A stretch of 64,000 nt of DNA from Caldifarciminota bacterium. Lineage in GTDB: Bacteria; Hydrothermota; Tepidihabitantia; SM23-42. Under the pieces are notes generated by a model. That model worked only from the letters and a program-made list of their open reading frames with translations, was not told the DNA's origin and searched no databases. Each line of letters opens with the position of its first letter. Positions within the stretch are counted from its first letter, which is position 1. Shown one piece after another: positions 4,723 through 56,674 of this stretch. The position numbers were made by a program, and so were the translations under genes. The stretch spans positions 62,001-126,000 of the forward strand of contig JALVOT010000003.1 in the NCBI GenBank assembly GCA_027026255.1, given 5' to 3'.

Positions 4723-4831
4723 CTATTTTATGACCTTTAACATTAATTTCTGCGCCGTTTTGATTATCATAAAATATACGCGGGTCCAGATATTCCAGAA
4801 TCCTTAATGTCTTTGCCGATATCACAAACAG

Positions 4832-5182
4832 CTGATTCCTCTCCACTTTTTTCACTATGCCTCCTGGATTAATTGCAAGGGTATTCTGGACAGAATAAAC
4901 TTCCCTGAGATTATTAAACCAAGACGAAAAATACTCAACAACTTTGTTTACTTTTTTTATATTATTTATTGGTCATTTGAAAAATTTCTCTAACATCTTC
5001 GCCCGGTCCCATTTTTACCAGCGCGGCCGGCGTTTCCATTTTTTCCAGTACGGGCGGCGTCCCCGCCGCCCGCTGGAGGTTTGTCATTCTTACAGCCCGC
5101 CGGGCGCCCTGCCTCGGGGCGAGACGCCCCCCGGCTATATTATGCTTACAAAAAAGCGAGACAAAAAGTGGCGAGGAATCAG
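4832..5182 (+). mobile_element. MITE-like non-autonomous element, copy 1 (351 bp)
   Basis: The ends are imperfect terminal inverted repeats: left CTGATTCCTCTCCACTTTTT, right (reverse complement) CTGATTCCTCGCCACTTTTT. A second copy lies at 56169-56520 in the opposite orientation, with clearly similar sequence along nearly the whole length. The copy is flanked by a 9-bp direct repeat with one mismatch, CACAAACAG (4823-4831) and TACAAACAG (5183-5191), as expected of a target-site duplication. The interior has GC-rich palindromes, for example CGGGCGGCG ... CGCCGCCCG at 5051-5072, and no conserved ORF, so any transposase must act in trans. The right end lies 12 bp upstream of the tmRNA -35 box. 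The parent transposon family is not known from this window. Confidence 0.85.
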
Positions 5183-5194
5183 TACAAACAGGCC

Positions 5195-5222
5195 TTGACA
5201 ATATCCAAAATATATTTATAAT
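5195..5222 (+). promoter_or_regulatory. tmRNA promoter
   Basis: Perfect TTGACA (5195-5200), 16-bp spacer and perfect TATAAT (5217-5222). The mature tmRNA 5' end is 6 nt after the -10, so transcription probably starts at or next to the mature end. The -35 begins 3 bp after the target duplication of MITE copy 1. Confidence 0.9.
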
Positions 5223-5228
5223 ATCACA

Positions 5229-5574
5229 GGGGGCGAACGGTTTCGACAGGACGAATGAAATGAAAGAGGGCATACCGAGGGTTCTTGGTCACCTCGTAAA
5301 TCCGACCGGAGAAAAAAATATCCTGAATACGGATACGCATTGGCTGCATAATAAGGCAGTCACGTCCTCTCAGGTGACCAACCCAGCCTGGGAAGCGGCG
5401 TCATATAGGGTTGAAACCTGATAATCCGCGCCTTTGGGATTATCAGGAAAACAAAAAAGGCTCTCTCTTGCGGCCTGTCTCTTGGCGACGCAGGAGGAGA
5501 TTCGTAAAGAGACTAAGTATGTAGTCCTCTTCATTGAAGCGTTCTGGACGCGGGTTCGATTCCCGCCGCCTCCA
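5229..5574 (+). ncRNA. ssrA: Transfer-messenger RNA
   Basis: A one-piece tmRNA of about 346 nt that rescues stalled ribosomes. The 5' end GGGGGCG pairs with the 3' CGCCTCC to make the acceptor stem (one G-U pair), and the T arm GGGTTCGATTCCC is at 5552-5564. The 5' tRNA-like part has the typical GGTTTCGACAGG. The tag reading frame ends in codons for ALAA followed by two stops (TAATAA at about 5350-5355); the residues before it read KYPEYGY in that frame. The resume codon cannot be fixed by eye. Stem-forming sequence follows in the pseudoknot region. The 3' CCA is not encoded: the discriminator A is followed by TAAAAT. Confidence 0.95.
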
Positions 5575-5578
5575 TAAA

Positions 5579-56128: not shown

Positions 56129-56156
56129 AGTATAATCATTATTTTAAAAAGGTCAA
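56129..56156 (-). promoter_or_regulatory. Promoter of the BNR-like gene
   Basis: Minus strand: TTGACC (56156-56151), 16-bp spacer, TATACT (56134-56129). About 12 nt of leader with AGGAG before the GTG. The -35 begins 3 bp from the target duplication of MITE copy 2. Confidence 0.7.
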
Positions 56157-56168
56157 GATGACCTATCT

Positions 56169-56520
56169 CTGATTCCTCTCCACTTTTTGTTCCGGTTTTT
56201 TGTAAACTATGTTACAATATAGCCGGGGGGCGTCTCGCCCCGAAGCAGGAACGCCTGGCGAGCTGCCGGAGTTTCTGAAACGAGTTAAGAATGACAAACC
56301 TCCAGCGGGCGGCGGGGACGCCGCCCGCGCTGAGAAAAATGGAACCGGGCGAAAATAGCAGAGAAATTTTTCAAATGACCAGTAAATAATATAAAAAAAG
56401 TAAAACGGAGTTGTTGAGTATTTTTCGTCTTAGTTTAATAATCTCAGGGAAGTTTATTCTATCCAGAATACCGTTGTAATTAATCCAGGAGGCATAATAA
56501 AAAAAATGGAGAGGAGTCAG
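56169..56520 (-). mobile_element. MITE-like non-autonomous element, copy 2 (352 bp)
   Basis: The reverse complement of copy 1 (4832-5182), similar along nearly its whole length. Ends: CTGATTCCTCTCCACTTTTT at 56169 and, reverse-complemented, CTGACTCCTCTCCATTTTTT at 56520. Flanking 9-bp direct repeat with one mismatch: GACCTATCT (56160-56168) and GACCTGTCT (56521-56529). It has the same GC-rich palindrome core and no conserved ORF. Its 56169 end, which is the same end that faces tmRNA in copy 1, lies 12 bp from the -35 of the BNR-like gene. The 150 bp beyond the other end (56530-56674) hold nothing recognisable. Confidence 0.85.
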
Positions 56521-56674
56521 GACCTGTCTCCCACGACCGATTAAAATTCTGGTTTATTTGGCTTTTTCGGCGGACAGGGCATCTCAAACAGATGAACCGA
56601 ATATACTGGAAAACTGGATAATAACTTTATATAACCTTAAGCGATTTAAAATACCGCAGGCGCAACCGAAATGA

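Follow-up and report, generated by a model that had tools for sequence, protein, structure and literature searches.

The promoter of the tmRNA gene (ssrA) in a 2.1-Mb WOR-3 (Stahlbacteria) genome raises the question of why a small mobile element should end exactly 12 bp upstream of a -35 box, and why a second copy should end at the same distance from another. Both copies lie in the window (the whole stretch of DNA that was analysed, 64,000 nucleotides), with the following features around them:

4823..4831, no strand: distal target duplication of MITE copy 1 (CACAAACAG), 8 of 9 positions matching 5183-5191
4832..5182, plus strand: MITE copy 1, 351 bp, with terminal inverted repeats (TIRs) of about 20 bp (CTGATTCCTCTCCACTTTTT / CTGATTCCTCGCCACTTTTT)
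5183..5191, no strand: promoter-proximal target duplication of MITE copy 1 (TACAAACAG)
5192..5194, no strand: 3-bp gap between duplication and -35, copy 1
5195..5200, plus strand: -35 box TTGACA of the tmRNA (ssrA) promoter
5217..5222, plus strand: -10 box TATAAT of the tmRNA (ssrA) promoter, 16-bp spacer
5229..5577, plus strand: tmRNA gene (ssrA), Rfam RF00023, 179.6 bits
54359..56110, minus strand: gene for a 583-aa protein with a FlgD-Ig / Por-type C-terminal sorting domain, downstream of the copy-2 promoter
56129..56134, minus strand: -10 box TATACT of the promoter adjoining copy 2, 16-bp spacer
56151..56156, minus strand: -35 box TTGACC of the promoter adjoining copy 2
56160..56168, no strand: promoter-proximal target duplication of MITE copy 2 (GACCTATCT)
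56169..56520, minus strand: MITE copy 2, 352 bp, 78% identical to copy 1 over its full length
56521..56529, no strand: distal target duplication of MITE copy 2 (GACCTGTCT), 8 of 9 positions matching

An earlier note on this DNA had described two elements of 351 and 352 bp with 9-bp duplications matching at 8 of 9 positions each, and these coordinates proved correct on re-reading; at both copies the 9-bp duplication and the 3-bp gap add up to 12 bp between element and -35. The note had also stated that the same element end faces the -35 in both cases. This is true of the two window copies, which both present their right end, and it does not extend to the family: among 41 elements of this genome examined by a strict test, the -35 lies 12 bp off the left end in 15, the right end in 17, both ends in 3 and neither in 6. 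The agreement of the window copies in using the right end is the chance of two copies.

The MITE family amounts to about 50 insertions in this genome. The copy-1 element has 46 matches, full and partial, and the TIR occurs at 86 ends with at most 3 mismatches, the reversed control pattern giving 0. Within the sequence stretches around element matches, to which the own-genome counts apply, TTGAC is found at exactly +12 outward from 44 of 88 ends (87 distinct), and at any other outward distance up to 60 bp it is found at 0 or 1 ends each. The number expected at +12 is 0.09 (binomial P ~1e-106). If each insertion has one promoter, TTGAC is expected at every second end, as is the case here, and by element the -35 lies at 12 bp from one or both ends in 35 of the 41. 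The six that failed the strict test comprise an 8-bp duplication with distance 11 (1), a distance of 13 (1), a boundary misplaced by 2 bp (1), a decayed end (1), and two which have the left flank of another, third copy on their contig and represent a rearrangement. Since most of these exceptions come down to an offset of 1 bp, a misplaced end or a rearranged flank, the fixed 12-bp distance is essentially universal, holding for practically every copy in this genome, in both orientations; this is the genome-wide tabulation that the earlier note had proposed as a check. A few sites do deviate, with no recognisable -35 at 11-13 bp or with a weak -10. The three MITE copies at G000:C4:332, C4:24559 and C4:27693, all on one contig, have the left flank in common and differ in the right one, a pattern suggestive of either recombination among copies or a local duplication.

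The distance of 12 bp is composed of two parts, of which one is nearly constant. At insertions with a clear duplication, the promoter-proximal edge of the duplication is 3 bp from TTGAC in 49 of the 52 sides scored. The target duplication is 9 bp in most insertions and 8-10 bp in the rest, and where it is 10 bp the distance becomes 13 in 4 of 4 cases. Because the 3-bp gap holds despite duplications of 8-10 bp, it is one of the two joining sites that the enzyme fixes with respect to the -35. Given a 16-bp spacer and a start about 7 nt past the -10, the duplicated DNA would occupy positions of about -38 to -47, the region in which the alpha-CTD contacts UP elements.

Outward alignment from the element ends gives a consensus with a second block, TATAAT at +34 (present in ~85%), so that the target reads TTGACA-N16-TATAAT. 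Conversely, when ends were picked blindly by their -10 (n = 91), TTGAC stood at +12 in 86 of the 91. The host's other promoters, surveyed over ~315 kb, have the same architecture, with a 16-bp spacer in 65 cases vs roughly 8 at neighbouring spacings (17 bp: 7). The E. coli sigma70-type optimum is 17 bp, unlike the 16 bp of this host. Position by position, the composition of element-targeted promoters is like that of other host promoters, with slight differences at the edge of the duplication. The genes downstream of targeted promoters include ssrA and, as we take them to be from reading their sequences, recA, proS, an aspartokinase gene, a Fur-like gene and rpmB. The possibility that TTGAC is part of the element itself was rejected, as it lies outside the duplication and is kept at the same ssrA promoter in several other genera, where no element is present. 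At about half of the targeted promoters a start codon follows the -10 by 5-8 nt (e.g., C14:192806, C17:3726, C17:213439), which suggests that leaderless mRNAs are widespread in this WOR-3 genome.

The same TIR was found in 15 of 147 WOR-3 genomes. In these relatives TTGAC lies at exactly +12 in 51 of 114 ends, with other distances represented by 0-2 cases (log10 P ~ -139), and the figure is 59 of 129 when more loci are added; the relatives obeying the 12-bp rule come from other genera and families. In genome G024, 44 ends belong to a second, recently active subfamily, whose TIR is CTGAGTACTCCTCACTTTTT; many of them lie at contig ends, as is expected of recent identical copies. Among 33 ends of this subfamily (G024 and related loci), a -35 with at most one mismatch lies at +12 in 16 and a -10 at +34 in 15, the next best distance giving 2. 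In a sister species (G001: C13, L255), the ssrA promoter carries an insertion of its own, with the opposite element end, a different duplication and again 12 bp; the promoter was hit independently there. Neither the TIR nor the transposase was found in viral contigs, and a lone TIR match from Acidobacteria (L128) was set aside, since it is without a -35 at 12 bp, its second end was not found and it may be due to chance. With regard to tmRNA, another WOR-3 genome (G004) has two apparent tmRNA genes, at C1:1266379-1266755 and C1:1394619-1394967 (131.7 and 156.6 bits).

A full-length element with the same ends, a transposase and a 9-bp duplication, which the earlier note had proposed to look for, was found in relatives. 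One autonomous copy (L130) is 1183 bp long and has an intact single ORF of 365 aa between the same TIRs; another (L158, 1173 bp) has the same TIRs and is frameshifted; a third (L194, 1260 bp) has a duplication matching at 9/9; and further copies were found at L195 and, at contig ends, at L197-L199. In every autonomous copy whose promoter side can be read, the +12 position holds a -35 or a hexamer like it. The insertion L194 splits a frame of 302 codons, which is uninterrupted at the empty site, and sits at an antisense TTGTCA-N15-TATAAT. This genome has kept only a broken transposase remnant (G000:C1:46548-47442). The profile PF01609 (DDE_Tnp_1) matches the transposase of L158 and this remnant, and against NF033591 (IS4; cut-off 152) L194 scores 159.8 bits, ISTth2 217 and L130, just below the cut-off, 146.2. 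The Y(2)R(3)E(6)K motif is present as YGRRMLIEEGFRDLK in L130 and in the same pattern in L194, L197 and L216. The profile match, the YREK motif, the single ORF and a duplication of about one helix turn place the element in the IS4 family; 5'-CT ends and the 9-bp duplication fit the IS10 subgroup, and the lengths of 1173, 1183 and 1260 bp straddle the lower limit of its 1200-1350 bp. The top fold match of an AlphaFold model of the transposase (mean pLDDT 56) is Tn5 transposase; the model is good in the catalytic core but weak elsewhere, so that it does not allow a targeting domain to be named. A sequence search of the transposase against solved structures gave nothing useful.

The short elements are MITEs by their small size, the lack of a transposase ORF, their TIRs, target duplications and many copies, and their derivation from an insertion sequence (IS). 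Base pairs 1-125 of the MITE match the 3' end of the remnant transposase gene at 77-81% identity (copy 1: 81%), so that the MITEs are internal-deletion derivatives. Their interior is G+C-rich and has a 27-bp tandem repeat (TTTCCATTTTTTTCAGCGCGGGCGG-like), e.g., at L095:2855-2935, which is absent from the parent IS; its copy number probably explains the element lengths of ~310-475 bp. An intact IS256-type element (G000:C3:141589-142662; L095:1298-2628) is found directly upstream of a promoter that carries a MITE, the copy at C3:142771, and was rejected as the driver of these MITEs because its TIRs are unrelated. It is itself flanked by the repeat ATGGTTGAC, a duplication with a -35-like TTGAC.

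The behaviour extends beyond the phylum. ISTth2 is an IS4-family, IS10-subgroup element of Thermus thermophilus (PMC6352166), and in 7 of 7 ISTth2-like insertions in Thermus/Meiothermus plasmids TTGAC stands at a distance of 12 or 13 bp from one of the element's ends. ISTth2 is like the elements described here in its IS4_2 profile, 9-bp duplications, length of ~1.18 kb, similar TIR (CTGAGYTCTCATCACT) and promoter distance of 12-13 bp; it is unlike them in that its transposase is ~25-29% identical and no MITE swarm was seen. The word 'promoter' occurs 0 times in the survey of Thermus IS (PMC6352166). Cyanobacterial IS4 elements with the same profile had no TTGAC at +12 (4 records, one site each), so the trait marks a lineage and not the whole IS4 family. 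The proposal of target choice at promoters made in the earlier note is therefore supported by a fixed distance, which this genome shares with its relatives, the autonomous parents and the Thermus insertions; in none of them are the copies scattered without one, the pattern that the note had said would reduce its two cases to coincidence. As read from the insertion sites, these comparisons show base-exact promoter targeting, with either element end, that belongs to the transposase lineage as such. The MITEs descend by deletion, with loss of the transposase, from an insertion sequence of the IS4 family (IS10-like), and were mobilised in trans by the DDE transposase of this parent IS. Promoter-proximal joining occurs 3 bp upstream of the -35 hexamer of sigma70-type promoters, with the duplicated 9 bp (8-10) just beyond, and leaves the -35 and -10 intact.

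That RNA polymerase or sigma guides the insertion agrees with these data, and we infer such guidance as the likely basis of the targeting. In this mechanism, the transpososome would be docked by RNA polymerase holoenzyme (through sigma region 4, the flap or the alpha-CTD), or by the DNA shape of the polymerase-bound promoter, rather than by the transposase's own recognition of TTGACA. Docking of this kind would bring the element close to genes that stay unbroken, which would lead to its build-up in front of housekeeping genes. As a whole, this explanation (IS4-type MITEs spread in trans to a fixed promoter site by a transpososome docked via polymerase or polymerase-bound DNA shape) is, from the genomic evidence, probably correct. 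With somewhat less assurance, we favour the more specific statement that a Tn10/Tn5-type DDE transposase is guided by bound RNA polymerase holoenzyme, joins at the alpha-CTD/UP-element position 3 bp upstream of the -35, and has come to do so independently of Mutator-type elements, in at least two phyla.

The strongest alternative is that the transposase reads the TTGAC of the -35 as DNA, free of polymerase, and that the presence of a -10 reflects no more than the loss of insertions at TTGAC outside promoters. TTGAC is by far the most conserved feature of the target, and the precision of 1 bp is measured from the -35 even where the duplication varies in length or the spacer is 17 rather than 16 bp, both as direct reading would have it. 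Against it, a -10 is present at 34 of 39 intergenic TTGAC adjoining elements vs 57 of 137 other intergenic TTGAC (Fisher P 4e-7); that is, intergenic TTGAC without a -10 is common (80/137) but rarely used (5/39). This enrichment could come partly from the survival of promoter-near insertions. Some targets also combine a poor -35 (TTGCAA, TTGATT) with a perfect, correctly spaced -10, and the antisense target of L194 likewise has a perfect -10. It is from the avoidance of non-promoter TTGAC and the occurrence of poor -35/perfect -10 targets that docking on the polymerase-promoter complex is deduced, and direct reading of TTGAC is, on balance, unlikely.

Much less probable is near-random insertion followed by selection that kept only promoter-sparing copies, the other explanation entertained in the earlier note. 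It would account for the facts that nearly all copies are intergenic, that the -35 and -10 stay whole, and that the targets include the promoters of recA, ssrA, proS and rpmB. Under selection, one would expect many harmless insertions in terminators or at 20-60 bp upstream, but other distances are represented by 0-2 cases; the recently active G024 subfamily is equally precise; and the gene-disrupting insertion L194 follows the rule. The 1-bp precision, together with this insertion into a coding frame at an antisense -35/-10, disfavours selection alone, which as a sole cause is already refuted.

To our knowledge, Mutator-type elements are the only known case of promoter-targeted integration in bacteria. 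TnGBS, ISLre2 (p-MULT 3) and some ISKra4 (p-MULT 4) elements have established promoter targeting, 15-17 bp upstream of sigmaA-type -35 boxes, and contact with RNA polymerase has been proposed for TnGBS (PMC3942029). The elements described here resemble them in the fixed distance upstream of sigmaA-type promoters and the 8-9-bp duplications, and, like ISKra4 and ISLbu1, they use both orientations (PMC3942029). They differ in that p-MULT elements have a Mutator-type transposase and a distance of 15-17 bp vs 12 here, and in that most p-MULT 3 elements are oriented. Mobilisation of the present elements by a p-MULT (ISLre2/ISKra4/TnGBS) transposase would explain the shared promoter targeting, the 8-9-bp duplications and the use of both orientations, which occurs where TIRs are near-perfect (PMC3942029), but it is the least credible of the alternatives, as no ISLre2 was found in 31 genomes with PF06782 (a profile that was silent on its controls too, which makes this search weak by itself), no ISKra4 (NF033572) was found in this genome, the TIRs of the lone IS256-type copy are unrelated, those of the present elements flank IS4 transposases, the MITE carries an IS4 transposase 3' end, and the distance is 12 bp, not 15-17.

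Tn5/IS50 and Tn10/IS10, of the IS4 family, have in common with the present elements a DDE transposase with the YREK motif, a 9-bp duplication and 5'-CT ends, and the Tn5 fold is the top match of the transposase model. The TIR here begins CTGACTC, like the Tn5 outside end. Tn10 prefers NGCTNAGCN and Tn5 is nearly random in its choice of target; we know of no instance in which either measures its position from a -35. The genomic review of the IS4 family (PMC2266710) has no occurrence of 'promoter', and no report of promoter targeting by IS4 elements was found in the open-access literature, to which the search was limited, so that an earlier report may exist elsewhere. The Ty3 integrase acts at a fixed spacing from the Pol III transcription start, which is attributed to contact with TFIIIB/TFIIIC (as cited in PMC3942029). 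Ty3 is a eukaryotic retrotransposon, and the analogy is one of behaviour only.

The occurrence of base-exact targeting in the IS4/IS10 lineage would mean that promoter targeting has evolved at least twice. This lineage has the best-understood transposases (Tn5, Tn10) and, in Thermus, a culturable host, so that recognition of the promoter or the polymerase by the transposase would be directly testable. A promoter-targeting transposase could serve as a tool for mapping promoters, and in uncultured phyla the insertions themselves flag real promoters, pointing here to the form TTGACA-N16-TATAAT and to many leaderless genes.
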